Source: Planctomycetota bacterium
GTDB lineage: Bacteria > Planctomycetota > JAJSAM01 > JAJVHW01
Assembly (NCBI GenBank): GCA_021414065.1
Contig: JAIOPE010000037.1
Coordinates: 87,960 to 151,959 of the forward strand
DNA: 64,000 nt
Direction: 5' to 3'
The notes under the pieces are model-generated. The model worked only from the letters and a program-made list of their open reading frames with translations, did not search any database and was not told where the DNA came from. A program made the position numbers and the translations under genes. This document shows, piece after piece, positions 7,449 to 30,677 of this stretch (positions are counted from its first letter, which is position 1; every line of letters begins with the position of its first letter).

Positions 7449-9311
7449 ATGACAGGCACGACAGGCATGACACCAGGTAGTCCGAGCAACCGCGCGACGC
7501 CCCTCCGGAGCCGACGCGGCCCTGCGACCGCTGTCACCATTGCGTTCGCTGCCGTGCTGGCCTTCGGTGCAGGCATCGCGGCGTCGCCGCGGGCCGGGGA
7601 AGCCCGCGCACAGGGCGTCCCGCTCGAGCTCGAAGATGTCCGGGATCTCGTCTCGCGTTGCGTGCACTTCGCCCGTCGCACCCCCGGCACCCCGGCGCTC
7701 TCGATCGCAGTCACCGACGTCGAGGGCAACGCGCTCGGCGTCTTCCACATGAACGGCGTGCCCGCACCCGCTTCGATGCTGACGGACGTGCTCGCGGCCG
7801 ACTCCCGCGAGCGACGCACGGCCCGCGCCCTTGCGAAAGCGGGTACCGCCTCGTACTTCTCGAGCGACCAGGAGACGTTCTCCACGCGCACGGCCGCGTT
7901 CATCATCCAGGACCACTTCCCGCCCGGCGTGCGGTTCATGCCGGCCGGTCCGCTCTACGGCGTCGAGTTCTCGAGCTTCGCCGGGTCGGACGTCAACGAG
8001 ATCGCGTATCCGCGGCCCGCTGCCGGGTTCGAGGCGCGCGTCCGCGGCGACCTGGGCGGGATCGGGCTCTTCAAGGGCGGGCGCCGCGTCGGCGGACTCG
8101 GCATCGACGACGGCGACGGCGGCAAGCAGATCAGCATCCCCGACCGCATCCTGTTCGGCGGCGGGGGCGCCGACGACTACCGGCTGACGCACGCGAACAT
8201 CGAACGCGGCCGGAACATCGAACAGATCGCAGTCGCCGCGGCCCGCCCGTACCTGGCGCCGCCCGACATCCGCGCGGCCCGCATCCTCGTGGGCGGCGTG
8301 CGACTCCCCTTCGCCCGCCCCGTGAACCTCGCGGACACGTCTGCCGCACCGGCCGTCCCGGGCGTGGACGGCGACTACGACGCGTCATACCCCGTGCGCG
8401 CCGCGGGGCCGATCCTGTCGCGGTTCGCAGCGGCGAGGCTCGACCCGCCGAGCGGTGCGGGCCCGGACGCCCGCTCGTACTCGGGCGAGATGCCGCTCGC
8501 CTTCGCGCCCCGCGCCGGCACCGACGGCATCCTGTCGAAGGACGACGTCCTGCAGATGCTCTGGCAGGGCGCCCGCCGGGCGAGCGTCACCCGCGGTGCG
8601 ATCCGGCGGCCCATCGGCCTCGGGATGCAGTGCTGGATCTCGGTCGTGGACACGCAGGGCGAGGTGCTCGGAGCCTTCCGCTATCAAGAGGACGCGACGC
8701 TCTTCTCGTACGACGTGGCCGTGCAGAAGGCGCGCACTGCGGCGTTCTTCTCCGACGATCGCGTCGCGTGGAGCGCCCGCGGCATCGGCACGTTCGCGCA
8801 GGCCTTCTACCCGGCGGGCCAGCAGGACGCGTACCAGGGTCCGCTCTTCCAGTTGCAGGACGGCATCACGGTCGGGCTCCTGACGGGCGGCATCCCCGCG
8901 ACGTCATTCGCGCTGCGCAACGGCATCACCGTGTTCCCCGGCGGCGTGCCCGTCTACAAGGGCGGCGTGCTCGCGGGCGCCGTCGGCGTCTCGGGCGACG
9001 GCATCGACCAGGACGACATCGTGGCGACGTCGGCATCGACGGGCTTCCAGGCACCCGGCTCGATCCGCTGCGACGCGGTGGACGGCGCAACGCTGAAGCG
9101 AAGCCTGGTGCGCGTGCTTGACCGTCTCGAATCGCACGTCCCCGCCGACCCGGGCATGTTCGACGTGTCGGGCGGCGTGGATCAGGTCGGCCTTTCGTTC
9201 TTCCACGAACGCCTCCGCGACTGCCGGAAGCGACTCCGGACCGTGCCGTTCGTGCTCGGCCCCGCCTACGTCAAGTTCCCGCGCCACCCCGGCCCGGTCA
9301 CGGTCCGTTGA
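7449..9311 (+). CDS. Exported GlcG/HbpS-like haem-binding protein (two domains)
   Basis: The track ORF begins at TTG 7422. I prefer ATG 7449, which follows a GGGAG and gives a signal peptide (RRGPATAVTIAFAAVLAFGAG ... ARAQG), for about 620 aa. Two regions, after the signal peptide and from about 370, have GlcG/HbpS (DUF336-like) character: ALSIAVTDVEGNALGVFHM with GGLGIDDGD, and QCWISVVDTQGEVLGAFRY with GAVGVSGDGIDQDD. Proteins of this family bind haem or act as cofactor-binding accessory domains; here the role is inferred. It overlaps the leader of the next gene closely (12-base gap to ATG 9323) and precedes an outer-membrane-like protein and a multihaem cytochrome, so a role in haem handling or electron transfer on the cell exterior is plausible. 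Confidence 0.6.
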   Translation: MTGTTGMTPGSPSNRATPLRSRRGPATAVTIAFAAVLAFGAGIAASPRAGEARAQGVPLELEDVRDLVSRCVHFARRTPGTPALSIAVTDVEGNALGVFHMNGVPAPASMLTDVLAADSRERRTARALAKAGTASYFSSDQETFSTRTAAFIIQDHFPPGVRFMPAGPLYGVEFSSFAGSDVNEIAYPRPAAGFEARVRGDLGGIGLFKGGRRVGGLGIDDGDGGKQISIPDRILFGGGGADDYRLTHANIERGRNIEQIAVAAARPYLAPPDIRAARILVGGVRLPFARPVNLADTSAAPAVPGVDGDYDASYPVRAAGPILSRFAAARLDPPSGAGPDARSYSGEMPLAFAPRAGTDGILSKDDVLQMLWQGARRASVTRGAIRRPIGLGMQCWISVVDTQGEVLGAFRYQEDATLFSYDVAVQKARTAAFFSDDRVAWSARGIGTFAQAFYPAGQQDAYQGPLFQLQDGITVGLLTGGIPATSFALRNGITVFPGGVPVYKGGVLAGAVGVSGDGIDQDDIVATSASTGFQAPGSIRCDAVDGATLKRSLVRVLDRLESHVPADPGMFDVSGGVDQVGLSFFHERLRDCRKRLRTVPFVLGPAYVKFPRHPGPVTVR

Positions 9312-9322
9312 GGAGCCACGCC

Positions 9323-11260
9323 ATGCACAACAGCACGCGTCTCCTCCTTGTCGCCGGCGTCCTTCTCCCCGTCACTGCGGGGTGCAAGGTGCAACCGGTG
9401 GACGGCAACATCGACCGCCGTCAGCCGGTCGCGGCCGAGTCGCTCGCGAGCACGTTGAAGAGCGGCGGCGGCACCATCGACACGCTGGGACACGGCGACA
9501 GCGTCACGGTCGGCGGCGGCACCGCCGGCGGCGTGAACACCGGAGCGGGCGGGCTCGGTCCCGCCGCCCGCGAGGCGGTGAAGTTCCTGCCGCTCGGCTA
9601 CGCCGGCGACGATCCGGGCGCACGCGCCCGCGGCGACGCTCCGTACGAGGACATCGTCCCCCACCCGGATCGTTGGCGCGTCGGCTTCCCGGCGTGGGAG
9701 CGCGGCTCGATGACAGACTCCCCGTGGGATCTCGGCGCCTGGTGGGATCCGTACCACCAGAACGTGCTGAAGGGCGACTACCCGCTCCCCGGCACCCAGA
9801 ACCTCTTCCTCTCCCTCGAGGCGAGCGCCGTCCTCAAGTACGAGACGAAGAAGCTGCCGATCCCGTCGGGCGGCTTCCCGCGCGACGCAGGCAACGACAC
9901 GTTCTTCGGGAGCTCTCACCTGCACGCCATCGAGGAGACGCTGTTCATCACCGCCGACCTCTTCCACGGTGAGACGTCGTTCAAGCCGGTGGACTGGCGC
10001 GTGCTCATCAAGGGCGCCTTCAACAAGAACTACGTCGCGACGCAGGAAAACGGCGTGCTCTACGCCGACGCCTCCGCCGGGCGCACGCGCACCGACGACC
10101 ACGCCACGCTCCAGCAGGCGTTCTTCGAGACGACCATCGCTTCCGTCAGCCCCAAGTACGACGTCATCCAGGCGCGTCTCGGCATCCAGCAGTTCAACTC
10201 CGACTTCCGCGGGTTCATGTTCTGCGACGACACGCTCGGCGCGCGGTTCTTCGGCAACTACGACGACAACAAGTGGCAGTGGAACCTTGGCTGGTTCCCG
10301 CGGCTCGAGAAGGACACGAACTCGGGCCTGAACACGCTCCACAAGAACGGCCAGAACGTCTACGTCGCGAACGTCTACCGCCAGGACGCGCTCGCGGCGC
10401 TGCTCCCGAAGTGGAAGGACGCGAACTGGAGTCACGGCCTCACGACGCAGGTGTCGATCCACCACCTCGACTCGAACGCGTCCGTCCACTACGACGAGAA
10501 CGATATCCTGGTGCGCCCGCGCATCGTCGGGTCGCTCGTGCCCGGCGAGTCGAACCTGACGTGGCTCGGCTGGACGAACGACGGCCACATCGACCGCATC
10601 AACGTCACGTCGGCGCTCTATCACGCGAGCGGCACCCAGGACTTCGACGAGATCGCCGGCCGCAAGGTCGATGTCGAGGGCAACCTCGCGGCGCTGGAGT
10701 TGTCGATCGACCGCGACTGGATGCGCTTCCGCGTGCAGGGCCTCTGGCAGAGCGGCGACGACAAGCCGCAGGACGGCACCGCGAAGGGCTTCGACGCCAT
10801 CTTCGACAACGAGAACTTCGCCGGAGGCGAGTTCGGCTTCTGGAACCGGCAGGGCATCGGCCTCGCGGGCACCGGCGTCGGACTCGTGCAGGGCGGCAGC
10901 CTCTACAACACGCTGCGATCGAGCAAGCTCGAGGGCAGCCCGGCGTTCGTCAACCCGGGCCTGCTGCTGCTCGGCGCCGGCTGGGACGCCCAGCTCACGC
11001 CGAAGATGAAACTCATCGCGAACGCATCGCACCTCTGGTTCGACGACACCGCGTCGCTCGAGTACGTGCTCGGCCAGGGGAAACTCCACCGCGCGATCGG
11101 GTGGGACCTCTCGGCCGGCGTGATCTGGCGCCCGCTCCTCACCGACAACGTGATCGTCAAGACCGGCGTTTCGGCGCTGCTCCCGAGCCGAGGGTTCGAG
11201 GACATCTACACCGACGACACGCTCTACGCGGGCTTCCTCGAACTCGTCCTCACCTGGTGA
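9323..11260 (+). CDS. Outer-membrane beta-barrel-like protein with N-terminal lipobox-like motif
   Basis: Start set at ATG 9323, not TTG 9308, because GAGGAG sits just before it and it yields MHNSTRLLLVAGVLLPVTAGC, a lipoprotein-type leader; about 645 aa. The mature protein is rich in alternating aromatic/polar stretches (WQWNLGWFPRL, LTWLGWTNDGHIDRINV, MKLIANASHLWFDD) and ends LELVLTW, an aromatic C-terminus typical of beta-barrels. I do not recognise a named family; the pattern is porin-like. Position between a haem-binding protein and a lipoprotein multihaem cytochrome suggests a porin-cytochrome conduit partner (inference). A lipidated cysteine plus a beta-barrel is unusual, so the lipobox may instead be a normal cleavage region. 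Confidence 0.6.
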   Translation: MHNSTRLLLVAGVLLPVTAGCKVQPVDGNIDRRQPVAAESLASTLKSGGGTIDTLGHGDSVTVGGGTAGGVNTGAGGLGPAAREAVKFLPLGYAGDDPGARARGDAPYEDIVPHPDRWRVGFPAWERGSMTDSPWDLGAWWDPYHQNVLKGDYPLPGTQNLFLSLEASAVLKYETKKLPIPSGGFPRDAGNDTFFGSSHLHAIEETLFITADLFHGETSFKPVDWRVLIKGAFNKNYVATQENGVLYADASAGRTRTDDHATLQQAFFETTIASVSPKYDVIQARLGIQQFNSDFRGFMFCDDTLGARFFGNYDDNKWQWNLGWFPRLEKDTNSGLNTLHKNGQNVYVANVYRQDALAALLPKWKDANWSHGLTTQVSIHHLDSNASVHYDENDILVRPRIVGSLVPGESNLTWLGWTNDGHIDRINVTSALYHASGTQDFDEIAGRKVDVEGNLAALELSIDRDWMRFRVQGLWQSGDDKPQDGTAKGFDAIFDNENFAGGEFGFWNRQGIGLAGTGVGLVQGGSLYNTLRSSKLEGSPAFVNPGLLLLGAGWDAQLTPKMKLIANASHLWFDDTASLEYVLGQGKLHRAIGWDLSAGVIWRPLLTDNVIVKTGVSALLPSRGFEDIYTDDTLYAGFLELVLTW

Positions 11261-11265
11261 ACCCC

Positions 11266-14200
11266 ATGAACCGCAAGAACCTCCTCCGCGGCTCGCTCCT
11301 CTGCTTCGCGGGCTCCGCACTCCTCGCAGGGTGCCTCGCGTCGTCCGACGGACCGCCTGATCTCGCGCCCCCCGGATCGGTTTGGGACAGCCACCGCGCC
11401 GCCGCCCGGGTCGCCTCGCAAGCCGAGGATCGTGGGCCCGACCTCGCGTCGCGCATGGCGAAGGCGTCGGCCGAGTACGACGCGAAGAGCAAGGGCTGCC
11501 TCGCCTCCGGATGTCACGAGGGCGTCGAGCCGGCACACGCGCGGCAGACCGTGCAGATCGGCTGCGTGGACTGCCACGGCGGCGACGGCCTCGCGACCGC
11601 GAAGAACGACGCGCACGTGCTGCCGCCGGACCCGGAGATGACCGCGAAGACCGCGGCCATCCGTCAGGACGCCGAGTGGATGGCGCTGCCGTACGAGTAC
11701 GTTCGCTTCGTCAACCCGGGCGACCTGCGCGTCGTGGACTCGACGTGCGGCCCGTGCCACGCCAACGAGGCGTACGCGTCGAAGAAGAGCATGATGACCC
11801 ACGGGGCGATGCTCTGGGGCGCAGCGCTCTACAACAACGGCAGCTTCCCGCTGAAGCGCCCGCACTTCGGCGAGGCGTACGACGAGAACGGCATGCCCGC
11901 GCGCATGCAGACCGTTCCCGCGCCGACCGACGACGAGATCAAGACGAAGGGCGTGCTCGCGTATCTCGATCCGCTCCCGCGCTACAACATCTCGCAGATG
12001 GGCAACATCCTCCGCGTGTTCGAACGCGGCACGACGAAGCCCCTCGAGCTCGCGAACCCCAACAAGGACGAAGACCCGGGCCTGCCCGCGCGCCGTCTCT
12101 CGTTCCGCGGCCCCGGCACGCAACTCCGCACCGACCCGGTCTACCTCGGCATCACGAAGACGCGCCTCCTCGACCCGATCCTGTGGATGCCCGGCTCGAA
12201 CGACCACCCCGGCGACTACCGCCACTCCGGTTGCACCGCGTGCCACATGGTCTACGCGAACGACCGCGACCCCGACCACTCGGGCCCGTGGGCGAAGTTC
12301 GGCAACCGCGGCCTCTCGCAGTCGAAGGACAAGTCGATCCCGAAGAACGAGTCGGGCCACCCGATCACCCACACGATGACCCGCTCGATCCCGTCGAGCC
12401 AGTGCATCGTCTGCCACATGCACCCCGGCACGAACATGGTCACCACGTACTACGGCGACCTCTGGTACGACAACGAGACCGACGCCGCGGGCCTCTATCA
12501 CGGCCGCGAGGACCAGTCGCACCAAGAGGTCTACGACACGCAGGAGCTGAACCCCGAGGGCTCGGCGCTCCGCGGCAAGTGGGGAGACCCCGAGTTCCTG
12601 GCCGACATCACGTCGAAGAACGGTGAGCTCCGGAACGTGCAGTTCTCGGACTACCACGGCCACGGCTGGCTCTACCGCAAGGTCTGGAAGAAGGATCGCA
12701 AGGGCAACATGCTCGACGCGAACGACCAGATCGTCTCGCCCGACGACCCGAAGAAGTGGGAGAAGACCGTCCACCTGAAAGACATCCACCTCGAGCGCGG
12801 GATGCACTGCGTCGATTGCCACTTCACGCAGGACGTCCACGGCACGGGCAAGCTCCACCAGGAGCCGCGCGCGGCGACCGAGATCATGTGCGTGGACTGC
12901 CACGGCACGTACAAGGCGCGCGCCACGCTCATCACGTCGGGCGTGGTCGGCGGGAACGACCTGACGCAGTCGATGACACCCTTCGGCGCTCGGTTCATCA
13001 GCCGCCGCGGTGTGATCTACCAGCAGTCGCAGATGGACAAGGACGTGCTGTGGGCCGTGCCGCAGGTGGCCGACTCGATCGACCCGGCAAACGCGGGCAA
13101 GCAGTACTTCGAGGGCCAGGACACCGGCCGGAAGCGCCCCGTCTACAACGAGAAGGCGCGCTGGGCGAAGACCGTGAAGAAGGACGGCCAGACCTGGGGC
13201 GACGGCACCGTCGGCGAGATGGAACTCGCGCACTCGAACGACCGCATCACGTGCCAGACGTGCCACACGTCGTGGACCACGTCGTGCTTCGGCTGCCACC
13301 TCTCGATGAAAGCCAACAGCCGCAAGGAGATCCGCCACTACGAGGGCGGCACCTCGCGCAACTGGACGCAGTACAACTATCAATCGATGCGCGACGAAAC
13401 ATACATGATCGGCATCGACGGAACCGTCACCGGGAACAAGATCAGCCCCGTGCGGCCGGCCTGCCCGATCATCGTCGGCTCGCAGAACCAGAACCGCGAG
13501 TGGCTGTACTCCCAGCAGCAGACGATCAGCGCGGAGGGCTTCTCGGGTCAGGCGTTCTCGCCGTACGTGCCGCACACCGTGCGCCGCACCGAGACGAAGA
13601 CCTGCACCGACTGCCACCTCTCCGAGCAGAACGACAACAACGCGCTCATCGCCCACCTGCTCACGCAGGGCACCAACTTCACGGGCTTCATGGGACGCAT
13701 CTGCTACGTCGGCGCCGGCGACGGCGGCTTCTACGCGGTCACCGTGACCGAGCGCGACGAGCCGCAGGCCGTGATCGGTTCCACGCTCCACCGCGACGCG
13801 TTCCCCGAGCGCTTCAAGGCGTTCGTCGATGGCGGCCGCGTACTCGGCGAGGCCTACCACCACCACGGTGAAGACACGCGCTCGATCCAGCTCCGCGGCG
13901 AGTACCTCTACGCCGCCGAGGGCGAGGGCGGCCTCGAGATCTACGACGTCTCGAACGTGGACAACAAGGGCTTCAGCGAGCGCATGACCACGTCGCTCAA
14001 CTCGCCGCTCGGCCAGAAGTTCTACGTCCACACGAAGGACGCCCGCGCCGTCGCCAGCCCGACCACGCTCGGCGTGGACCCGACGCGCCCCCACCGCGCG
14101 GAGAACGAGGAAGGCCCGATCCACCTGCTCTACGCGTTCCTCTACGTGGCCGACCGCGAAGAGGGCCTCGTCATGGTCCTCGCCGCGACGCTCCTCGACG

Positions 14201-15024
14201 GCGACCCGACGAACAACTTCCTCGATCGCACCGTGGTCTTCAACCCGGACGGCGTCCTCGACGGTGCCGAGTCGATCACGATCGCCGGCAACTACGCGTA
14301 CGTCGGGGCGAAGCAGGGGCTCGTCGTTCTCGACCTGTCCGCGATCTCGCTCACCGACATGAAGCCGAAGGTCGTGAAGGTGATCCCCGAGCTCCAGGGC
14401 ATCACGTCGATCGCGGTGCAGTTCCGTTATGCGTTCGTCACCGACGCCAAGGGCCTCGCCGTCGTGGACGTCACCGACCCGGCGAAGGCCGTGGTCGTCC
14501 CTGGCGCCCGCATCGCGCTGGAGCAGGCGAACGACGTCTTCGTGGCCCGCACGTACGCCTACGTCTCCGCCGGCAAGAAGGGCCTCGTGATCGTGGACGT
14601 CGAGAACCCGGAGAAGCCGAAGATCGATCAGGTCTTCGACGCCGACGGGAAGATGAACGACGTGCGGATGACGCGCATCGCGATCACGAACACCTCGCTC
14701 TTCGCGTACGTGGCCGACGGCGTGAACGGCCTCCGCGTCGTGCAGCTCACGTCGCCCGAGACCGTCCCGCAGTTCGCCGGTTTCAGCCCGCGCCCGAAGC
14801 CGGTCCTCATCTCGACCTTCCCGACCCCGACTCCGGCGAAGGCCCTGTCGAAGCCCCTCGACCGCGACCGCGGCGTGGACGAGAGCGGCAACCAGCTCAC
14901 CGTCTTCGGCCGCATCGGATCGCGCCCCTTGAACGGCGAGGAGTCCCGCCGCCTCTACATCCGCGACGGCAAGCTCTTCCGCGTGTCGGACAAGCCGAAG
15001 ACGAAGGCCCTCGACCCGAAATGA
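11266..15024 (+). CDS. Multihaem c-type cytochrome lipoprotein with LVIVD propeller
   Basis: About 1252 aa from ATG 11266 (5 bases after the upstream stop; GTG 11257 is an overlapping alternative). The leader ends in SALLAGC, a good lipobox. The N-terminal two thirds carry nine CxxCH motifs (CVDCH, CGPCH, CTACH, CIVCH, CVDCH, CVDCH, CQTCH, CFGCH, CTDCH) and one CX4CH (CLASGCH), so up to ten covalent haems. From about residue 860 the protein changes to LVIVD-type propeller repeats (YLYAAEGEGGLEIYDVSN, YAYVGAKQGLVVLDLS, YAFVTDAKGLAVVDV, YAYVSAGKKGLVIVDVENP, FAYVADGVNGLRVV). Last gene of a three-gene cluster and followed by strong hairpins. Likely acts on the outer surface or periplasmic face in electron transfer; acceptor unknown. 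Confidence 0.88.
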   Translation: MNRKNLLRGSLLCFAGSALLAGCLASSDGPPDLAPPGSVWDSHRAAARVASQAEDRGPDLASRMAKASAEYDAKSKGCLASGCHEGVEPAHARQTVQIGCVDCHGGDGLATAKNDAHVLPPDPEMTAKTAAIRQDAEWMALPYEYVRFVNPGDLRVVDSTCGPCHANEAYASKKSMMTHGAMLWGAALYNNGSFPLKRPHFGEAYDENGMPARMQTVPAPTDDEIKTKGVLAYLDPLPRYNISQMGNILRVFERGTTKPLELANPNKDEDPGLPARRLSFRGPGTQLRTDPVYLGITKTRLLDPILWMPGSNDHPGDYRHSGCTACHMVYANDRDPDHSGPWAKFGNRGLSQSKDKSIPKNESGHPITHTMTRSIPSSQCIVCHMHPGTNMVTTYYGDLWYDNETDAAGLYHGREDQSHQEVYDTQELNPEGSALRGKWGDPEFLADITSKNGELRNVQFSDYHGHGWLYRKVWKKDRKGNMLDANDQIVSPDDPKKWEKTVHLKDIHLERGMHCVDCHFTQDVHGTGKLHQEPRAATEIMCVDCHGTYKARATLITSGVVGGNDLTQSMTPFGARFISRRGVIYQQSQMDKDVLWAVPQVADSIDPANAGKQYFEGQDTGRKRPVYNEKARWAKTVKKDGQTWGDGTVGEMELAHSNDRITCQTCHTSWTTSCFGCHLSMKANSRKEIRHYEGGTSRNWTQYNYQSMRDETYMIGIDGTVTGNKISPVRPACPIIVGSQNQNREWLYSQQQTISAEGFSGQAFSPYVPHTVRRTETKTCTDCHLSEQNDNNALIAHLLTQGTNFTGFMGRICYVGAGDGGFYAVTVTERDEPQAVIGSTLHRDAFPERFKAFVDGGRVLGEAYHHHGEDTRSIQLRGEYLYAAEGEGGLEIYDVSNVDNKGFSERMTTSLNSPLGQKFYVHTKDARAVASPTTLGVDPTRPHRAENEEGPIHLLYAFLYVADREEGLVMVLAATLLDGDPTNNFLDRTVVFNPDGVLDGAESITIAGNYAYVGAKQGLVVLDLSAISLTDMKPKVVKVIPELQGITSIAVQFRYAFVTDAKGLAVVDVTDPAKAVVVPGARIALEQANDVFVARTYAYVSAGKKGLVIVDVENPEKPKIDQVFDADGKMNDVRMTRIAITNTSLFAYVADGVNGLRVVQLTSPETVPQFAGFSPRPKPVLISTFPTPTPAKALSKPLDRDRGVDESGNQLTVFGRIGSRPLNGEESRRLYIRDGKLFRVSDKPKTKALDPK

Positions 15025-17650: not shown

Positions 17651-17979
17651 CACAGCGCCATCGTCGAGAAGCACGCCGTCAGCACGAGGGCCGCGAGGCC
17701 CGCGTAGATCGCCATCCCGATGGCCCGGCCCTCTCGGCCGCGGCGGGCGTTCCACCAGATCAGCCCGACGAGCACCGGGATCGGCACGAACCACGCCACG
17801 ATGCTCGGCATGAGCGCCGCGTACTCGCCGTCGCCCGCGAAGCATGCGACGAGTACCCAGAGGACGATGCGGATGCCCCACATCACGGCCATCGCGATGC
17901 CGAATCCGGCGAGCACCTGCTGCCATCGCACGGGGTTCACCCCGCTGCGGGTCGGTTCGGGGACGTCCGGCTGCGTCAT
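17650..17979 (-). CDS. Small membrane protein, paralogue 1
   Basis: 109 aa from ATG 17979, whose ATG overlaps the stop of the radical SAM gene (ATGA). Three hydrophobic segments (about 23-47, 57-76, 86-106) and the shared end RRGREGRAIGMAIYAGLAALVLTACF. First of four tandem relatives. No named family recognised. Confidence 0.68.
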   Translation of the reverse strand: MTQPDVPEPTRSGVNPVRWQQVLAGFGIAMAVMWGIRIVLWVLVACFAGDGEYAALMPSIVAWFVPIPVLVGLIWWNARRGREGRAIGMAIYAGLAALVLTACFSTMAL

Positions 17980-19394
17980 CGTCTCTCCACCTCCGCGCGG
18001 AGCGGCGCGAGGCGCGTGCGCTCGAGGTCGTCGCGGTAGAACAGGTTGTACGTGTCGAACGGGATGAGGCGGCCGTCGTCGGGGTGGACGATGTGGATGC
18101 AGGTCTTCTTCACCGAGCGGACGTCGAAGCTGTGCGCGTCGAGGAACTGGACGATGAGCACGCGGAAGACGTTCTCGTACGAGAGGCCGCCGGCGAGGGC
18201 GATTTTCGGGAGGCAGCAGAGCAGGTCCTTCAGGCTCGCCGCCGCGGACTCGGGCGAGTGGTTCGTCGAGAACGCCTTGAAGATGGCGCCGCGGATCGCG
18301 GCCTCCTTCTCGAACACGATCGTGTTGCGCCCGCCCTCGATGAGCACCTGCGGGTCGATCAGGCCGGTGAGCGGCGTGACCTTCCCGCCGACCTTCAGCG
18401 CGTACGCCATCGCGAGGCAGTCCGGGTGGCACGGCACCGGCAGCACGTCCTCGGGCCGGAAGACGCTCGACTGCGACAGGATCGCGCGGCGCACCTCCGA
18501 CAGCGTGAGTCGGTCCTTCGCAGGGTCGAACCCCTCGGCGCGGCCGGCGTCCTGGATCGGCTGGAAGGTAACGCCGCGGACGCACTTCCACTGGAGCGCG
18601 TGGTCGATGATCGCGCCGCACTCGGAGTCGTTCAGACCCTTCTGCAGCGTGACGACGAGCGTGGTCGAGATGCCCGCGCGGTCGAGGTTCTCGAGGGCGC
18701 GGCGGCGGATGTCGCGCAGGTCGGCGCCGCGGAGGCGCATCTGCGGCTCGCGCTCGAGCGAGTCGAACTGGAGATAGACCTCGAAGCCCGGCATGTAGCT
18801 CGCGAGTCGCTTGACGAACTCGGGGTCGTTCGCCATGCGGATGCCGTTCGAGTTCACCATCAGGTGACGGATCGGGCGGCGCTTCGCGGCGTCGAGGATC
18901 TCGAAGAACTCGGGGTGGACGGTCGGCTCGCCGCCGGAGATCTGCACGACGTCGGGCTCGCCCTCGTTCCGCACGACGGCGTCGAGCATCCGCTCGACCT
19001 GCGCGAGCGGGCGCAGGTTCTTCCGGTGCGGCCCGCTCGCGGCGTAGCAGATCGGGCAGGCCAGGTTGCAGTCGTCGCAGATCTCGATCAGCGTGAGGCA
19101 CGAGTGCTGCTCGTGGTCGGCGCAGAGCCCGCAGTCGTACGGGCATCCCCATCGCACCGGCGTGTTGAACCGCACCGGCATCTCCGACGGCTTCAGGAAC
19201 ACCTCGCGGGCGCGGCGCCAGTAGTCCACGTCGTCCGCGAGGAGCACCGTGCGAGCGCCGTGCTCGCGGCAGCGCTTCATCAGCAGCACCTTGCCGTCTT
19301 CGAAGACGATCTTGCCTTCGACCTTGCGGAAGCAGACGTCGCAGATCGAGATCGCGACGTCGTAGTAGAGATACGGCCGCACACGCTCAGCCAT
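17976..19394 (-). CDS. Radical SAM enzyme of the Tes/MJ0619-like type
   Basis: 472 aa from ATG 19394; the upstream extension in the track is a shadow. An N-terminal CDVCF ... KRCREHG knuckle is followed by WGCPYDCGLCADHEQHSC, the extra cysteine-rich segment found in the MJ0619/tetraether-synthase group, then the radical SAM cluster motif CNLACPIC and ISGGEPTVHPEF. Later cysteines (PVPCHPDC, LLCCLP, KTCIHIVH) could hold auxiliary clusters. Archaeal Tes joins lipid tails through C-C bonds; many bacterial relatives are uncharacterised, so lipid modification is an inference, strengthened by the overlapping Lgt-like gene upstream (8-base overlap). Alternative: a different radical SAM reaction on a membrane substrate. 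Confidence 0.82.
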   Translation of the reverse strand: MAERVRPYLYYDVAISICDVCFRKVEGKIVFEDGKVLLMKRCREHGARTVLLADDVDYWRRAREVFLKPSEMPVRFNTPVRWGCPYDCGLCADHEQHSCLTLIEICDDCNLACPICYAASGPHRKNLRPLAQVERMLDAVVRNEGEPDVVQISGGEPTVHPEFFEILDAAKRRPIRHLMVNSNGIRMANDPEFVKRLASYMPGFEVYLQFDSLEREPQMRLRGADLRDIRRRALENLDRAGISTTLVVTLQKGLNDSECGAIIDHALQWKCVRGVTFQPIQDAGRAEGFDPAKDRLTLSEVRRAILSQSSVFRPEDVLPVPCHPDCLAMAYALKVGGKVTPLTGLIDPQVLIEGGRNTIVFEKEAAIRGAIFKAFSTNHSPESAAASLKDLLCCLPKIALAGGLSYENVFRVLIVQFLDAHSFDVRSVKKTCIHIVHPDDGRLIPFDTYNLFYRDDLERTRLAPLRAEVERR

Positions 19395-20175
19395 CTTGGA
19401 CCTCGGGGTGGACCTTCGGACTCGTCTCCGACGGCGCGCTCGCGCGCGGCTTCCATGTTGCCACGACGACCGCGATCGCTGCGACACACGCCCACTGGAT
19501 GCCGGTGAGCCCGAGCGTCGGCGCGCGCGGCTTCAGGAACTCGATGGCGATCCGCCACGCGCAGTAGGTGGCGACGAACGCCCGGAACACGGCGCCGTCC
19601 GGGCCGATCGACCCGCGGCGCAGCGTCCACCGCGCGAGCGGCACCGCGAGGGCCAGCACGAACGCGGCCTCGTAGAGTTGCGTCGGGTGACGCGGCACGC
19701 CGTCGCCGAAGTCCACGGCCCACGGGAGTTCCGATGGCAGCCCGTACGTGTGGTCCGCGAGGCCGCCGCTGAAGCAGCCGATGCGTCCGACCGCGATGCC
19801 GATGCAGAGCGGCGCGGCGAACAGGTCGCCGGTGCGCGTGGTCACGCCGGTGCGACCCTTGATCCACTCGACCGCCGCCCATCCGCCGAGGATGCCGCCC
19901 ACGATCGTCTTCCCGCCGAGAAGCCACGGCAGGTCGGCCCGGTGGGCCCACGTCGCGGCCGGATCGTCGAGCCAGAAGAGCAGCTTCGACCCGAGCGCCG
20001 CGCCGACTGCCGCGGCCGCGAGCACGGTCCATCGCGCGGTGCCGTCCACGACGTCACCGCGACGCTTGCGCAGCGCTCGGAACGCCTGGAACCCGACGGC
20101 GTAGCCCGCCGCCTCGAACAGCGTGTGCGCCGCGATTCGGACGCCCGCCACCTCCAGCATCCATGGGAAGGTCAC
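19387..20175 (-). CDS. Lgt-like polytopic membrane protein with altered active site
   Basis: 262 aa from GTG 20175 (ATG 20160 is possible). Shows the Lgt layout: several membrane helices, GRIGCFSGGLADHTYG in place of the Lgt signature G-R-x-G-N-F-x-N-x-E-x-x-G, and the conserved RHPTQLYEA. The catalytic-region H-G-G of true Lgt is IVGGILGG here (His replaced by Val), and the signature Asn and Glu are Cys and Leu. It is therefore probably not the housekeeping prolipoprotein diacylglyceryl transferase, but a paralogue acting on another lipid substrate (inference). It is the first gene of the radical SAM operon. No clear Shine-Dalgarno. Confidence 0.75.
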   Translation of the reverse strand: MTFPWMLEVAGVRIAAHTLFEAAGYAVGFQAFRALRKRRGDVVDGTARWTVLAAAAVGAALGSKLLFWLDDPAATWAHRADLPWLLGGKTIVGGILGGWAAVEWIKGRTGVTTRTGDLFAAPLCIGIAVGRIGCFSGGLADHTYGLPSELPWAVDFGDGVPRHPTQLYEAAFVLALAVPLARWTLRRGSIGPDGAVFRAFVATYCAWRIAIEFLKPRAPTLGLTGIQWACVAAIAVVVATWKPRASAPSETSPKVHPEVQDG

Positions 20176-21817: not shown

Positions 21818-23932
21818 TCAGCGGTGGTAGCGCTCGCGGACGTGACACGCGAGGCACGACGGGTCGAGCGGGCCCGGCCACGCTACGTCCACCACGCGCT
21901 GCGCGGCGTCCACGGCCTTGGGATCGTGGCACTTGGCGCAACCCGCGCCGCTCGCGTCGGCAGCGTCCTTCGTGTGGCCGCGGCTGAAGTGCTCGAAGCG
22001 ATGCACCGGCGCGGTGGTCTTCACCACCGCCTTCTCGCGGGCGAAGATCCCGGCTTCGTTGAAGCGGTAGACGAGCGCATCCTTCGCATCGCGGTTGGCA
22101 GCGGACGCGCGGTCCACATGGCAGAGGGCGCACTTGCCGCCACCGAGGCTCTCGTGGCCCTTGTGACACGCTGAGCAGTCGGCCGTGCCTTCGCGCAGCT
22201 TCATCGGCGCGTCTCCCGCAGCGGGGACGTGGCACGAGACGCAGCCCTGCGCGAGCGTCTCCCGGCCCGACAGCGCGCGGAGCGTGCCGCCGCCGGACGT
22301 ACCCGGCTCGACGGTGTGTACCGAGTGGAACATGTCCACCACCGTGCGCGTGCCGGTGCCCGCAACGGGTTTCGGCGCGCCCTCGACGTGACAGTCCTTG
22401 CAGGAGTCGAGCGTCGCCGCGGCGAGCGCAGACCCGAGTCCGGCGAGCGAGGAACTCTCGGCGACGGCGTGATGACAGGCGATGCACGACGCCGCGAGTG
22501 CGAGTCCGCCCCCCTTGCCGGGGTCCACGGTGCGCAGGTGGTGATCGTGACGGAACGCCTTCTTCTCGGGCTTCGCGGTCTGCACCGCGGTCTTCGTCTC
22601 GACGTGGCAGGAGCGGCAGTCGTCCTTCGCGAAGTCGTGCTTCCGCGGCATCACGTCGTACAGCGAGCCCGACACCGGGATCTCGGTCGTGCGGATGTCC
22701 TTCGCGATCTTCGAGACGTCGTCGGTCTTCGCGTGGCACTGGAAGCAGTGGACGCCGCCCTGCTCGCGGCCGTGGACGTCCACGCGCCACTCCGCGTGAC
22801 ACTCGAGACACTTCGTGTAGGCGACGAGTGCGAAGTCCGACGACGCGGCAGCACCGGGAACGTCGCCCGACCCGCGCTTCGCGTGGCACTTCGCGCACGG
22901 CAGCGGCACGTCACCGTCGGGGCGCTTCGCTCCGCCGACGAGCGACGCACGGCGCGGCTTCGCGACGCGGTGGTCGGCGTGCGAGAAACCGTCCACATGG
23001 AGCCAACGCTGCACCGGAGCGTCGGCGTGGTCGCGCGCCTTCGACGCGAGATCGGGCGCGGCGGCGGCGTCGGTCGCCCGCTTCTCGAAGTCGTCGCCCG
23101 CGTGGCACGTTGCACACGTCCGCTGCCATCCGCCGGCGACGAGATCGGTCGGCGGCATCACGTCTGCGTCGGCGCCCCGGTGCTCGGGATGGCAACCCTG
23201 GCAGGTCGTCTCGGCGGCGCGAGCGTACGGGTGGTGCTTCGCCGAGTCGAACGCCTCGTGGCACTTCGCGCAGGCGGCGGCGTAGTTCGATGCGAACGGC
23301 GAGTGGCAGTCGGAGCACTCCGTCGGACGCTTCGCGGCTCCGGGCCCGGTCTTCGCATCCGCGCCCAGCGCATGCGCCGCGAGGAGCGGCCCGCGGTTGA
23401 CGGCTTCGGTGTCCTTCGCGAGAGGGAACGACGCCAAGAGAAGCAGGCCCGCGAACGCTGCGATCCAGTTCCAGCGGCTGAGCACGTGCGACTTGCCCCA
23501 CCGCTGCTCCTGCGGGCTGTCGTCTTCGAGCGCGAAGGGCGTCGCGGCCTTCTTCGCCAACCCGGCGACTGTGGCCGTCAGGTACTTCTCGCCGATCGCC
23601 AGTTTGCAGGCGCTGTTCGCCTCGTCGATCGACACGTCAACGATCGCGTGTCCGACCTGCACTGTCGCGCCGTGAGGAACCGGCCCCGCACCTTCGACGG
23701 GCGCGCCGTTCACGAACACGCCCGCGAGGCTGTGCTTCACCTCGAGTTGCAGGCGGCGCCCGTCGAACACGAACTCCAGCGCCTCGAGCGGCACGAGTCG
23801 GTCCGCCACGTGGAGATCGGCCGTCGGCCGCGAGCCGAGCGTCACCCGCGACCGCTCGATCGTCTGCTCCGGACGGTCGCGGTTCGCCTTCTTCTCGAAC
23901 TTCCAGGTCACGACGAAGTGGGGTGCCGCCAT
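21818..23932 (-). CDS. FHA domain-transmembrane-15-haem cytochrome c fusion
   Basis: 704 aa from ATG 23932, two bases after the stop of the upstream gene; the extra 400 residues in the track ORF are a shadow. Residues 1-95 form an FHA-like domain (VTLGSRPTADLHVADRLVPLEALEF ... GVFVNGAPV), somewhat degenerate. A single hydrophobic helix (WNWIAAFAGLLLLASFPLA, about 173-192) separates it from a periplasmic part with 15 CxxCH motifs (from CSDCH to CLACH). So a cytoplasmic phosphopeptide-type module is joined to a haem wire outside the membrane. Last gene of the redox operon. Many free His (HDHHL, HSVH) can serve as distal haem ligands, as in cytochrome c3-like folds. Confidence 0.85.
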   Translation of the reverse strand: MAAPHFVVTWKFEKKANRDRPEQTIERSRVTLGSRPTADLHVADRLVPLEALEFVFDGRRLQLEVKHSLAGVFVNGAPVEGAGPVPHGATVQVGHAIVDVSIDEANSACKLAIGEKYLTATVAGLAKKAATPFALEDDSPQEQRWGKSHVLSRWNWIAAFAGLLLLASFPLAKDTEAVNRGPLLAAHALGADAKTGPGAAKRPTECSDCHSPFASNYAAACAKCHEAFDSAKHHPYARAAETTCQGCHPEHRGADADVMPPTDLVAGGWQRTCATCHAGDDFEKRATDAAAAPDLASKARDHADAPVQRWLHVDGFSHADHRVAKPRRASLVGGAKRPDGDVPLPCAKCHAKRGSGDVPGAAASSDFALVAYTKCLECHAEWRVDVHGREQGGVHCFQCHAKTDDVSKIAKDIRTTEIPVSGSLYDVMPRKHDFAKDDCRSCHVETKTAVQTAKPEKKAFRHDHHLRTVDPGKGGGLALAASCIACHHAVAESSSLAGLGSALAAATLDSCKDCHVEGAPKPVAGTGTRTVVDMFHSVHTVEPGTSGGGTLRALSGRETLAQGCVSCHVPAAGDAPMKLREGTADCSACHKGHESLGGGKCALCHVDRASAANRDAKDALVYRFNEAGIFAREKAVVKTTAPVHRFEHFSRGHTKDAADASGAGCAKCHDPKAVDAAQRVVDVAWPGPLDPSCLACHVRERYHR

Positions 23933-23934
23933 GA

Positions 23935-26388
23935 CTACGTGCCCCCCAGAAGGATCGTGGGGTCGATGCGCTCGATCGCGCCGCACGGGCAGTTGTAGAT
24001 GCACGCCATGTCGCCGCGTCCGGCGCAGAGGTCGCACTTCACCGCGCGGGCCTTCGGCCCCTTCGGCTCGTCCTTCTTCTCCGCGGTCGCGGGAGCCGGC
24101 TCCGGCTTCTTCGCCTTGAAGATCCCGCCGATCACGGGGATCGTCGAGAGCAGTTGCCGCATCGGAGACGCGATCACTTCCACGCCCGTCACGCCGACGA
24201 GCGACTGCATGTGGATCGTGCCGTAGGGGCAGGCCGGCTCGCAGAGCGAGCACCCGGTACACGCGAGCGGGTCGATGTTCACCTGACCGCGACGGTCGCG
24301 ACGGATCGCACCGAACTTGCAGGCCAGCATGCAGTCGGGGACCTGGCAGTTGTAGCAAGACGACGTGAGCAGCAGTTCGCCGTAGGAGAGGCCGCGCTTG
24401 CCGATGCGCGGGATGCGATCCTCGTGCGCCTCGATGCAGCCCGTCACGCACATGTTGCAGCGCGTGCACTTGCTCATGTCGATGACGAGCGCCTCGCCGG
24501 CCTTCACGACCTCGTGCTCGGCGCCGATCTCCCGCGCGCGCCCGCGGGCCGCGGCCTCGTCCTCCGTGAGGAACTCCGTGTCGAAGATGCGCTGGAGACG
24601 ATCCGTGACGGTCGCCTTGACGTCGGCGTGCTCCGCGAGCAGCGCGAGGAACGGCTCCTTCGGGATGCGCACGAGGTCCATGCGGTCCACGGCGGTCACC
24701 GTCGAGCGGCGCGGCTGGTCCGTGAGGAGCGCGACCTCGCCGAAGAACGAGTTCTCGCAGACCCACGCGAGGATCTCCTCGCGGCCTTCGGCGGACTTCG
24801 TGACCTTCGCGTGGCCCGTGCGGACCAGGAAGAAGGCGTCGCCGACGCCGCCCTCGCGGATCACCTCGGAGCCCTTCTCGGCCACGACCAGTTCGGCAAC
24901 GTCGGCGATCTGCTTCAGCACGCGGTCGCGGATGCCGCGGAAGAGCGACACTCCGGCGAGGTGGCTCTGCAGCGCCCGATCGCGGTACTGGTCGTCGATC
25001 GTCTTCTTGAAGCCGGCGCTCGCCTTGTCGGCATAGAGCCGCATGAACGTGTGCCGCGGGATCGAGAGCACCACGGTGTCGGCCTCGGCGATCACGGTGG
25101 CCGCGCGCGGCGCGTTCGACATGCAACTCATCTCGCCGAACCACGTGCCGCCCGTGAGCGACGTCAGGTACTTCGGGCCGCCTTCGGTCTGCTTGTAGAC
25201 GCCGACCATGCCGGAGAGCAGCACGAAGAAGTCGGCCGTGTACTCGCCTTCACGGCACACGACGGCCTTCGGCCCGAGTACGCGGAACTGCACCGATTCG
25301 TCGGCGAGACCTTCCCTGAGGAAGCGGAAGGCCGTCGGGCTGACACCCTTGAAGAGCGGGATCTGCGAGACGAGATACTCGGGCGAGTTCTTGTCCACGG
25401 GCGGTGCGGCGGGCGCTGCCGCTGCGGCCGGCGCCGGTGCCGCACCGGGGGCTTTCGGTCCCGGCGGGGCCAGACCGGGAGCCTTCGGTCCCGCCGGCGC
25501 CGCAGCCGACGGCGGCGCGCCCGGGGCCTTCGGTGCGACACCCGGCACCTTCGGCGCGCCGGGAGGCGCAGGAGGCTTCGGTCCCCCGCCGGGAGGTGCG
25601 GGAGGCGAGGGCGGCTTCGGCGCGGCCGGTGATCCGGGGGGAGACGGTGGCTTCGGTGCGCCGGGAGGCGACGGGGGCTTCGGCGACGCGCTCGGAGGAG
25701 TCGGAGGCTTCGGTCCACCTGCGGGCGGAGAAGGAACTCCGGGCGGCTTGGGAGGCGTTGGCGCGCCGGGAGGCTTCGGGCTGGCGCTCGGGGGCGCCGG
25801 AGGCTTCGGACCACCTGCGGGCGGCAGCGGCGGAGACGGCGGCTTCGGACCACCCACCGGCGGAGAAGGAACTCCTGGCGGCTTCGGAGGCGTTGGCGCG
25901 CCGGGGGGCTTCGGGCTGGCGCTCGGGGGGGCCGGAGGCTTCGGAGGAGACGGAGGCTTCGGTCCCCCTGCGGGCGGTCCGGGCGGCATCGGAGGTGTTG
26001 GAGCGCCGGGAGGCTTCGGGGCCGCGGACGGCGGCATCGGCGGTTTCGGAGCCGCCGCGGGCGCAGACGGCGCAACCGGCGGTTTCGGCGCGGCGCTCGG
26101 CGCGGCGCTCGGAGCAACGGGAGGAGCAACGGGAGAGGCAGCAGGCGGCGTCGGCGCGGGCGGCGGCGGCGGCGTCACCGACCGGGCCGCGCGGAGAGCC
26201 TCCTCGACGGGGATCGTCCGATCCTCCATCTCCGGCTCGTACGGCTCGAGCGTTGGTTCCTCAGCATCCAGGGTCGGCAGGCTGGCGTCGCTGTCGCGGC
26301 CGATGGGCGTGATCGGAATGGTGCGCTCGTCGTCGGGCGGACCGCTCGATCGACGGTCGTTCGGCGTGCTGTTGGGGTCTGTGCTCAT
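23935..26388 (-). CDS. Proline-rich protein with two cNMP-binding domains and DmsB/HmcB-like 4x[4Fe-4S] ferredoxin
   Basis: 817 aa. Residues about 70-335 are Pro/Ala/Gly repeats (GGPKPPSPP, SPKPPGAPTPPKPPG). Two cyclic-nucleotide-binding domains follow (about 345-465 with TWFGEMSCMSNAPRAATV, and 470-590 with SFFGEVALLTDQPRRSTV; the FGE and R-x-T elements of the phosphate-binding cassette are visible). The C-terminus has four ferredoxin cysteine sets: CTRCNMCVTGC, CYNCQVPDCMLAC, CTGCSLCEPACP and CDLCAGRGDMACIYNCP, the pattern of DMSO-reductase-type electron-transfer subunits. No signal peptide, so cytoplasmic. It lies four bases after the b-cytochrome and two before the FHA-cytochrome, so it probably forms the inner face of the same complex, gated or localised by cNMP (inference). 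Confidence 0.87.
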   Translation of the reverse strand: MSTDPNSTPNDRRSSGPPDDERTIPITPIGRDSDASLPTLDAEEPTLEPYEPEMEDRTIPVEEALRAARSVTPPPPPAPTPPAASPVAPPVAPSAAPSAAPKPPVAPSAPAAAPKPPMPPSAAPKPPGAPTPPMPPGPPAGGPKPPSPPKPPAPPSASPKPPGAPTPPKPPGVPSPPVGGPKPPSPPLPPAGGPKPPAPPSASPKPPGAPTPPKPPGVPSPPAGGPKPPTPPSASPKPPSPPGAPKPPSPPGSPAAPKPPSPPAPPGGGPKPPAPPGAPKVPGVAPKAPGAPPSAAAPAGPKAPGLAPPGPKAPGAAPAPAAAAAPAAPPVDKNSPEYLVSQIPLFKGVSPTAFRFLREGLADESVQFRVLGPKAVVCREGEYTADFFVLLSGMVGVYKQTEGGPKYLTSLTGGTWFGEMSCMSNAPRAATVIAEADTVVLSIPRHTFMRLYADKASAGFKKTIDDQYRDRALQSHLAGVSLFRGIRDRVLKQIADVAELVVAEKGSEVIREGGVGDAFFLVRTGHAKVTKSAEGREEILAWVCENSFFGEVALLTDQPRRSTVTAVDRMDLVRIPKEPFLALLAEHADVKATVTDRLQRIFDTEFLTEDEAAARGRAREIGAEHEVVKAGEALVIDMSKCTRCNMCVTGCIEAHEDRIPRIGKRGLSYGELLLTSSCYNCQVPDCMLACKFGAIRRDRRGQVNIDPLACTGCSLCEPACPYGTIHMQSLVGVTGVEVIASPMRQLLSTIPVIGGIFKAKKPEPAPATAEKKDEPKGPKARAVKCDLCAGRGDMACIYNCPCGAIERIDPTILLGGT
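25540..26130. repeat. Low-complexity proline-codon repeats inside the cNMP/ferredoxin gene
   Basis: Tandem imperfect repeats encoding units such as ASPKPPGAPTPPKPPGVPSPP, present twice nearly identically, and GGPKPPSPP. Prone to copy-number change and to assembly error. Confidence 0.65.
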
Positions 26389-26392
26389 CGTT

Positions 26393-27463
26393 TCAGTACC
26401 AGAGCACCAGGCCCACGTGGAGGGCGATGGCGAAGTAGACGAAGATGGAGACGGGCACGTGAACCCACCGCCACAGGCGGAGCTGGAAGTCGATGCGGCG
26501 CGCGGCGGCCGTGGTCCAGAGTAGGTAGTCGCGCGTTCCGGCCATGACGATCACGTCGCGCACGAGTTCGGCCTGATCGGGGTACTTCATCGCAACGCGG
26601 GCGAGCACGCCCTCGCTCCGTTTCCGCAGGTCGTCGAACGACGTCGTGCGCGCGAACATCTCGCGCACCTCGGCCTGCAACTCCGGCGACATCGTTCCCG
26701 CAACGCCCGCGATGCACGCTTCGTAGTTCTCCCGCGCGACGCCCGCTTCCTCGAAGGGGATCTCGCCGCCCTCCTTCGCGAGCTTCGGCGGCAGCAGGCG
26801 GTACATCACGGCAAGCACAACGCCCGTCACGAGCAGCACGCCGGAGCCGACGAGCAGTACCCACCCGAGCGGGTGGCGCAACACGCCGTCGGCATGGAAC
26901 CAGACGCCGACGCAGGCCGCGGCGCCGACGCCCATGTGCATCTCGAGCCACGGTTCGAGGCGCCCGAGCGGCTCGCGCTTGCGGAGTTGCACGAACCGGA
27001 TCGCTTTGCCGCCGATGTCGGCCGTGCGGATCTCCGCGCGCTGGATCTTCTCGACATGGAAGCGGCGCAGCACTTCGTCTGCGGCGACCAGGATCTCGGC
27101 GTCGTTCGCGTACGCGCCGCTCAGCACCTTCTTGTTGAGGAGTTGGATCTCGGACCAGCACGAGTCCACCATGCCGCGGGGCGCCCGGCCCCAGTCGCGG
27201 AAGAACTTCAGCTTCACGCTCCACTTGCGGAACACGAACGCGAGCGTCGCCACAAACAGGGCGAGAACCACGTTCCCCGACCAGATGAACCAAGTGCGTT
27301 CGTCGCCCGCGAAGCCGCGCAGCGCGCTGTTCATCCAGACCCATGCAGCAACGCCCGGCAGGAGCACCGCAGCGAGCCAGATCCACGTGCCGGGGCGGCC
27401 GAGGAACCGCACGGCGAACCGGCGGTTCAGGAGTTTGACGTCGCTGCCGGCGGTGACGCTCAA
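26393..27463 (-). CDS. Di-haem b-type membrane cytochrome
   Basis: 356 aa from TTG 27463, which overlaps the stop of the upstream gene (TTGA); the longer track start is a shadow. Hydrophobic helices are at about 26-46, 57-79, 172-190, 195-217 and 335-355. The third carries His pairs 14 residues apart (EMHMGVGAAACVGVWFHAD), and so does the last (WVHVPVSIFVYFAIALHVG). This bis-His geometry is that of two stacked haems b in quinone-reactive cytochromes. Large soluble loops lie between helices 2-3 and 4-5. I do not recognise a named family; a NarI/HmcE-like role in passing electrons between quinol and the cytochromes is inferred from context. Confidence 0.75.
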   Translation of the reverse strand: MSVTAGSDVKLLNRRFAVRFLGRPGTWIWLAAVLLPGVAAWVWMNSALRGFAGDERTWFIWSGNVVLALFVATLAFVFRKWSVKLKFFRDWGRAPRGMVDSCWSEIQLLNKKVLSGAYANDAEILVAADEVLRRFHVEKIQRAEIRTADIGGKAIRFVQLRKREPLGRLEPWLEMHMGVGAAACVGVWFHADGVLRHPLGWVLLVGSGVLLVTGVVLAVMYRLLPPKLAKEGGEIPFEEAGVARENYEACIAGVAGTMSPELQAEVREMFARTTSFDDLRKRSEGVLARVAMKYPDQAELVRDVIVMAGTRDYLLWTTAAARRIDFQLRLWRWVHVPVSIFVYFAIALHVGLVLWY

Positions 27464-29634: not shown

Positions 29635-30677
29635 TTCGGCGCCCCTCCGAACCAGCCGGCCTTCCAGCCGACCAGTGCGAGGACCACGAGTCCGACGACC
29701 ACGACCACGATCCCGATGAGCTTCGACGTGCCGCCGCCGCCGCCCGCAGCCGTGGTCGGCTGCAACGTGGCGATGACCTGGCGCTGGCGGTAAAGCTCGG
29801 CCCAGTCCTTCGGCGAGAAGATGCCCTTCTCCACGAAGATCTCGCCGAGCGTGCGTCCTGACGTGCGGTGTTCCGTGAGCGCCTCGCGCGCTTGCTGGTC
29901 GGTCGCCTTGCCCATACGGACTGCATGGTTCGCGAGCACTTCGGCGAGCGGGTCCGACGCGCCGGCCGCGCCGCCCGCCTCGGGCGACCGCGCGACGAAC
30001 AGGCAGTCCACCGTGCCGAACGTGACGGCCGTCTGCGGCTCAAGCGGCGTCGCCGCCGAGATCCGCACGCCGCCGAGGAACGTGCCGTTCGCGGAGCCGA
30101 GGTCTTCGATGAGGAACCTACCCCCGTCGAACTTGATCTTCGCGTGCTTCGACGAGACGGACTGGTGCGGCACGACGATCTGGGCGTCGCCCTTCTCGCG
30201 GCCGACGATCACTTCCATCTCGGTGATCTCGATGGTCTGGTGCGCGTGCTCCGCGCCGAGCACGAGCCGCCCGTGCGCCGCCTTGAACCGCGCGATCTCC
30301 ACGAGCAGCGACTGCATGGTGCCCGCGCCGACGGCGACCGTCTTCTCCGTCCTCCCGAACCCCGAGTCCGACTCGGTGCCGCCCGTGGCCGTGATCTCGA
30401 GGATCGCGGGGCCGAAGACGAGCTTCTGCCCGCGTCGGAGCGGCACGTCAGCGTGGGGCGCGAGACGGTCGCCGTCGTCGATCCGCGTTCCGTTCGTCGA
30501 TCCGAGATCCGTGACCACCAGTTCCAGGCCGTCGGGACGGACCTTCGCGTGCTTCGACGAAATCTGCCCGTCGGCGACGACGATGTCGGCCGGCGCCTTG
30601 CGGCCGATCAGAAGCTCTCGGTCAAGGTCGAACTCCCGTTCGACTTTGCCATTGACGGTCAACCGCAGGCGGATCAT
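29631..30677 (-). CDS. Double-FHA protein with C-terminal membrane anchor
   Basis: 348 aa from ATG 30677 (GGAGGG lies about 13 bases upstream). FHA 1 at about 20-95 (LLIGRKAPADIVVADGQISSKHAKV, DLGSTNGTRI) and FHA 2 at about 150-225 (VIVGREKGD, SVSSKHAKI, DLGSANGTFL) both keep the GR, SxKH and NGT motifs, so both should bind phosphothreonine peptides. A helical segment (LGEIFVEKGIFSPKDWAELYRQR) resembles the short module seen in type II/IV secretion-related N-domains. The tail ends in one membrane helix (LIGIVVVVVGLVVLALVGW). First of the overlapped redox genes, with the FHA part in the cytoplasm. Confidence 0.88.
   Translation of the reverse strand: MIRLRLTVNGKVEREFDLDRELLIGRKAPADIVVADGQISSKHAKVRPDGLELVVTDLGSTNGTRIDDGDRLAPHADVPLRRGQKLVFGPAILEITATGGTESDSGFGRTEKTVAVGAGTMQSLLVEIARFKAAHGRLVLGAEHAHQTIEITEMEVIVGREKGDAQIVVPHQSVSSKHAKIKFDGGRFLIEDLGSANGTFLGGVRISAATPLEPQTAVTFGTVDCLFVARSPEAGGAAGASDPLAEVLANHAVRMGKATDQQAREALTEHRTSGRTLGEIFVEKGIFSPKDWAELYRQRQVIATLQPTTAAGGGGGTSKLIGIVVVVVGLVVLALVGWKAGWFGGAPK

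Follow-up and report, generated by a model that had tools for sequence, protein, structure and literature searches.

Analysis of the window, the whole 64,000-nucleotide stretch of planctomycete DNA studied here, revealed three close-packed genes on the + strand, spanning positions 7449-15024. The first (7449-9311; 620 aa) encodes a tandem HbpS/GlcG-like protein that is predicted to be secreted, the second (9323-11260; 645 aa) a predicted outer-membrane beta-barrel with an AlgE-like fold of 18 strands, and the third (from 11257 with a GTG start, or 11266 with an ATG start, to 15024) a decahaem lipoprotein cytochrome with a C-terminal LVIVD beta-propeller. The first two genes lie 11 nt apart, and the second and third overlap by 4 nt (GTG start) or are separated by 5 nt (ATG start); given this spacing, the trio is likely an operon. 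A scan for Sigma-70-type promoters gave no match. The preliminary description of this DNA had recognized a three-gene cluster comprising an exported haem-binding-like protein, a barrel-like protein and a ten-haem lipoprotein cytochrome, and we found all three genes on the same strand with every coordinate as it had been given.

The exported, haem-binding-like character of the first protein is supported by an N terminus resembling a signal peptide and by a match of residues 391-529 to the HbpS-like family PF03928 (E 1.1e-14; 55 bits against a Pfam gathering cut-off of 25). A second, N-terminal copy of the domain is visible in the alignment of homologues, so that the protein is made of two related halves, and its gene is single-copy in its own genome. 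The top match in the PDB was EfgA (chain 6bws; E 9.4e-10), and chains of NahX were matched as well. The protein is a significant match to the HbpS/GlcG family (HbpS, EfgA and NahX), annotated as haem-degrading, from which the trio protein differs in being tandem, exported, approximately 500-600 aa long and genetically tied to a barrel and a cytochrome. In the literature searched, which lay outside subscription journals, we found no report linking HbpS or GlcG to multihaem cytochromes or porin-cytochrome complexes.

The barrel protein had no match in Pfam, NCBIfam or the PDB sequences. It ends in LELVLTW, and the final residue was Y, F or W throughout the 76 barrel reading frames homologous to it; an aromatic C-terminal residue is the expected assembly signal of outer-membrane barrels. 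In an AlphaFold2 model computed on a 13-sequence alignment, residues 161 to 644 contain 18 beta-strands, with pLDDT values mostly 80-95 over the barrel, and follow a disordered N terminus of about 150 residues (1-151). When the model was compared with the PDB by Foldseek, the alginate exporter AlgE, itself an 18-stranded barrel, ranked first (4afk; E 3e-17, probability 1), followed by MOMP, chitoporin, Occ porins and OmpF, and no TonB-dependent receptor was present among the best 50 matches. On the basis of these models the middle protein is predicted with good confidence to fold as a barrel of outer-membrane type, in agreement with its earlier reading as barrel-like, and a soluble fold is rejected by the AlphaFold and Foldseek results. 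The resemblance to AlgE has its bounds, in that identity is only about 14%, the trio barrel sits with a cytochrome, and no alginate genes were noted alongside; the AlgE family Alginate_exp (PF13372) was matched by one of the 13 barrel relatives (4e-5), the barrel of the window itself having no match. This barrel has a lipobox-like N terminus (VTAGC), a trait mainly of its own family. A simple pattern scan, which may miss some, returned such N termini in 11 of 76 barrels, several of doubtful quality and the best in the window's own family, and a lipoprotein barrel was accordingly rejected as a general feature.

The cytochrome (1252-1255 aa, depending on the start codon) carries the lipobox LLAGC together with nine CXXCH motifs and one CX4CH motif, which agrees with the multihaem lipoprotein described previously. 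All ten have aligned counterparts among the haem motifs of the first 12 relatives; the first motif is CX4CH in the window versus CXXCH in these relatives. Its C terminus matches the LVIVD beta-propeller (PF08309; E 2.2e-28, 97.8 bits against a cut-off of 20.2), a domain that the preliminary description had omitted. In a structure model computed without haems (pLDDT 84.9, pTM 0.89), Foldseek matched propellers only, the haem domain having no fold match, and the propeller fold at the C terminus is predicted with good confidence. Reports combining LVIVD with cytochromes in the literature searched were unrelated ones only. About 12 conserved histidines outside the motifs are present in the haem domain, enough to give all ten haems bis-His ligation; this is in keeping with a wire and compatible with a catalytic site too. 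A lipobox was found in 16 of 92 cytochromes by the simple pattern scan, which may miss some. From this fraction and the 11 of 76 barrels, lipidation is a lineage trait, and a general surface location of the cytochrome is not established.

The conservation of the cluster was determined at several scales. A search of 99 genomes, comprising its own and those of relatives, located the barrel in 13; each of the 12 relatives among these has the cytochrome next to it. In a same-phylum sample of 294 genomes (barrel E below 1e-80, cytochrome E below 1e-60, tandem HbpS E below 1e-25), barrel and cytochrome occurred in an identical set of 31 genomes, which excludes a chance association, and the two lay less than 0.4 kb apart in 27 of these. 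Tandem HbpS was detected in 24 of the 31 genomes and in none of the 263 others; in a twenty-fifth (G211) it is truncated where the contig stops, adjacent to the barrel. Owing to kinship among the genomes, Fisher values on this sample are not independent-sample probabilities; counted by family, HbpS was present in 13 of the 16 barrel-bearing families.

A scan of named genomes extended the distribution well beyond the phylum, yielding 579 confirmed cytochrome relatives, of which 80 were retained. NCBI ranks place these in Planctomycetota, Acidobacteriota, Verrucomicrobiota, Myxococcota, Binatota, Rokubacteria, Ignavibacteriota and Nitrospirota, with three unranked. The full trio was present in all of these phyla except Ignavibacteriota, which has the barrel-cytochrome pair. 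The cytochrome tree mostly follows phyla, and the positions of two of its long branches (L026 and L027) may be wrong. Where at least 2.5 kb of upstream flank was available (70 loci), a barrel lay no more than 4 kb upstream of the cytochrome on the same strand in 60 loci and anywhere in the locus in 64. HbpS, which played no part in choosing the loci, was found, mostly divergent, in 45 of 56 barrel-bearing loci and in none of five barrel-less loci with at least 5.5 kb of upstream flank. In Verrucomicrobia strain IMCC26134 (L089) an HbpS fragment lies at the locus edge, 9.7 kb away, and in some Planctomycetota neither a barrel nor HbpS lies near the cytochrome. Lack of conservation, which would have refuted the earlier reading, was not seen; the cluster is very strongly conserved.

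An all-against-all comparison of neighbouring genes revealed four further families that recur near the trio: a c554-type protein with four haems, a multihaem cytochrome anchored in the membrane, a cytochrome-b-like protein with four helices, and a protein that combines cNMP-binding with several [4Fe-4S] domains. Where the flank reached 8 kb or more (73 loci), they were found in 33, 44, 33 and 26 loci, respectively, the loose model behind the multihaem count possibly including other cytochromes. The genes for the multihaem, cytochrome-b-like and cNMP/[4Fe-4S] proteins are generally consecutive and in one order. In the window, a corresponding set lies 6.8 kb from the trio on the opposite (−) strand: a protein with an FHA domain, a membrane helix and about 15 haem motifs (21818-23944), which is a membrane-anchored multihaem cytochrome and the likely inner-membrane partner; a protein with two cNMP-binding domains and [4Fe-4S] ferredoxin domains (23935-26388), of a family found near the trio in other phyla too; a four-helix, cytochrome-b-like membrane protein with conserved histidines (26393-27574); and a second membrane-anchored multihaem cytochrome (27460-29634), with 18 CXXCH motifs counted and a weak likeness to HmcA. 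Models built without the window recovered its cNMP/ferredoxin protein (E 6e-72) and its cytochrome-b-like protein (E 1.6e-5). They recovered neither of its multihaem cytochromes, which are consequently alike to those of other loci in position and build, with orthology unsupported. The window holds no c554-type gene, and many c554-type cytochromes are encoded in its own genome.

The phyletic pattern of HbpS, with 24 of 31 barrel genomes against none of the others, identifies its gene as a real third partner of the barrel and the cytochrome and rules out a chance neighbour. Several homologues carry additional domains, including RTX repeats (L085), dockerin domains (L065, L093, L103 and L107), weak Planc_extracel matches (L103 and L107) and a matrixin domain (L102), and others have lipobox-like N termini by inspection. 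The RTX, dockerin and Planc_extracel domains suggest a location at the cell surface in the lineages that bear them. The previous proposal that HbpS stands in place of a periplasmic cytochrome is therefore probably wrong; given these surface-type domains and lipobox-like N termini, the protein has the look of an extra component at the surface, and genes for membrane-anchored multihaem cytochromes lie downstream in the window (21818-29634) as well as near the trio in many relatives. The haem-degrading annotation of the family, and the fact that HbpS tracks the barrel and is absent from the barrel-less loci, also raise the alternative of haem or iron acquisition, in which a secreted HbpS would capture haem or break it down, the product would enter through the barrel and ferric iron would be reduced by the cytochrome. 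We consider this improbable, since TonB-dependent receptors are lacking among the best 50 fold matches of the barrel, a decahaem cytochrome with an inner-membrane multihaem chain represents a large haem cost for iron uptake, and full-length HbpS was undetected in 7 of the 31 genomes.

The reading that we prefer, and to which we give about an even chance, is that the trio is an outer-membrane redox module that makes up a single trans-envelope pathway together with a separate inner-membrane module. Electrons would be exchanged between the periplasm and the cytoplasm or quinone pool by way of the cNMP-binding/ferredoxin, cytochrome-b-like and membrane-anchored multihaem proteins, and would be brought to the decahaem-propeller cytochrome. 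At the outer membrane, the 18-stranded barrel may hold this cytochrome or give it access to the outside, and the tandem HbpS-like protein, at or outside the cell surface, may bind haem itself or whatever serves the cytochrome as partner or substrate. This builds on three genes, ten haem motifs, linkage across phyla and nearby inner-membrane genes, all of which are observed, and extends them to a putative localisation for each protein, a presumed complex, a possible electron direction and substrate, and a possible route for electrons through the barrel. It is favoured by the shared occurrence of barrel and cytochrome in 31 of 294 genomes, the tracking by HbpS and the linkage of the loci across eight named phyla, as well as by the invariably aromatic barrel C terminus (76/76), the AlgE-like 18 strands, the inner-membrane genes near the trio, the RTX, dockerin or Planc_extracel domains of HbpS homologues, and the ten conserved haem motifs with their further histidines. 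Against it stand the absence of a separate MtrA/OmaB-like periplasmic cytochrome from the trio and the nature of the nearest solved barrel, AlgE, a polysaccharide exporter. The low share of cytochromes with a lipobox (16 of 92), the Planctomycetota whose cytochrome lacks both partners nearby, and the position of the window's inner-membrane genes, 6.8 kb off and on the other strand, also count against it, as do relatives among isolated planctomycetes, such as Rubripirellula and Roseiconus, in which dissimilatory metal reduction is not known.

The same features determine how far the trio resembles porin-cytochrome (Pcc) conduits. Pcc systems always pair a porin with a periplasmic cytochrome, and a strand number of 18-22 is predicted for their porins (PMC4245776). 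As in the Pcc system OmbB-OmaB-OmcB and in MtrCAB, the trio has an outer-membrane barrel adjoining a multihaem lipoprotein, and 18 strands fall within this range; it differs in lacking a periplasmic plug cytochrome and any MtrB sequence or fold match, and in having the extra HbpS-like protein. Beside the porin, only the ten-haem propeller protein is adjacent in the window and relatives, in place of a Pcc-type plug cytochrome gene. An ordinary Mtr/Pcc conduit, with its plug cytochrome encoded elsewhere and HbpS as an unrelated passenger, would accommodate the strand number and the many c554-type cytochromes of the genome, and yet it is very improbable: a profile search detected no MtrB/PioB-type porin (PF11854) in the genome, membership of the barrel itself in that group was rejected for want of a sequence or fold match, and the distribution of HbpS is not that of a passenger. 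The composition had been described as that expected of an extracellular electron-transfer system; the grouping, and with it the broad notion of a redox system at the outer membrane, holds, because the barrel fold was obtained in the model and the cluster is conserved. The barrel itself is no more than a putative electron conduit, since AlgE is the fold nearest to it and the trio has no plug cytochrome.

A further comparison is provided by the extHIJKLMNOPQS cluster of Geobacter, in which a porin-like protein is likewise clustered with multihaem cytochromes and with inner-membrane b-type and Fe-S components; the trio region differs in having HbpS, and neither a rhodanese nor a selenoprotein was seen there, the barrel being set against ExtI by description only. 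ExtM (NF040943) is the nearest named family of the trio cytochrome, at 89 bits against a curated cut-off of 800, far too low for membership, which was rejected. The similarity is distant: ExtM is a 12-haem protein of 68 kDa (PMC5877670), whereas the trio cytochrome has 10 haems, approximately 1250 residues and a propeller. ExtI affects selenite and tellurite reduction but not Fe(III) citrate reduction (PMC5877670), which keeps alive a second function for the trio, an ExtI-like substrate channel whose barrel admits a small molecule or anion that a periplasmic decahaem cytochrome, supplied with electrons from the inner membrane, reduces or oxidises, with HbpS capturing the substrate outside. The AlgE-like fold, the one Alginate_exp match, ExtM as the nearest named cytochrome family and the lack of a lipobox in most cytochromes all accord with such a channel, but the ExtM score is low, no active-site haem was identified and HbpS/GlcG domains are no known porin partner, and we regard it as rather unlikely.

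Returning to the trans-envelope pathway, the trio, kept together across many phyla and often near inner-membrane electron-transfer genes, is probably an undescribed electron-moving machine at the cell surface. More tentatively, and with somewhat more doubt than conviction, we propose an undescribed class of pathway in at least eight phyla, in which a cyclic-nucleotide-regulated ferredoxin/cytochrome-b complex would feed an AlgE-like barrel, a decahaem-propeller cytochrome and a surface tandem HbpS. Should this hold, a redox system at the cell surface, one that a search for porins of the MtrB or OmbB type would overlook, would be shared by many Acidobacteriota, Planctomycetota and Verrucomicrobiota of soil and freshwater, most of which are not counted among electron-exchanging bacteria, and an HbpS/GlcG-type protein would have a genetic role outside its known settings. 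Cultured carriers make the system testable, for example Rubripirellula obstinata (full trio) and strain IMCC26134 (barrel and cytochrome). He et al. (2017) described, in Verrucomicrobia including IMCC26134, which also carries the present family (L089), a predicted porin with 20 or more strands, accompanied by a periplasmic cytochrome of eight haems, and the section on these clusters makes no mention of HbpS (PMC5615132). We counted ten haem motifs in the trio cytochromes of ten Verrucomicrobia loci; with this number and the 18 strands of the window model, the trio family, set apart here by description, is probably different from the clusters in that section.

Downstream of the HbpS-barrel-cytochrome trio, the minus strand carries a dense electron-transfer gene cluster (21818-30677), encoding a 15-haem cytochrome with an FHA domain and a membrane helix, a cNMP-binding/ferredoxin protein, a cytochrome-b-like protein, an 18-haem cytochrome and a double-FHA protein. 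The cNMP-binding domains borne by the ferredoxin-type protein suggest that electron input is under cyclic-nucleotide control. Between this inner-membrane redox module and the trio lies a gene for prolipoprotein diacylglyceryl transferase (Lgt; PF01790; 19387-20175, minus strand); another minus-strand gene (17976-19487) encodes a radical SAM protein whose zinc ribbon is of the HMPTM type.

The first haem motif of the decahaem/propeller cytochrome (11257-15024) is CX4CH, and that of its counterparts in the first barrel-bearing related genomes is CXXCH (12 of 12); in some cytochrome relatives, such as those at loci L020 and L025, CX4CH occupies the third haem motif instead. At three planctomycetotal loci (L083, L084 and L099) the decahaem-propeller cytochrome is present in a neighbourhood lacking both barrel and HbpS genes, and at the latter two the adjoining genes encode four-haem, five-haem and cytochrome-b-like proteins. 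The window's own genome also encodes a paralogue of the cytochrome (G000, contig C135, 9714-11804; E = 8.7e-27 for the best stretch).

At five loci (L065, L085, L093, L103 and L107) the HbpS homologue is a fusion protein that also contains RTX repeats or dockerin, which makes for an unusual domain architecture.
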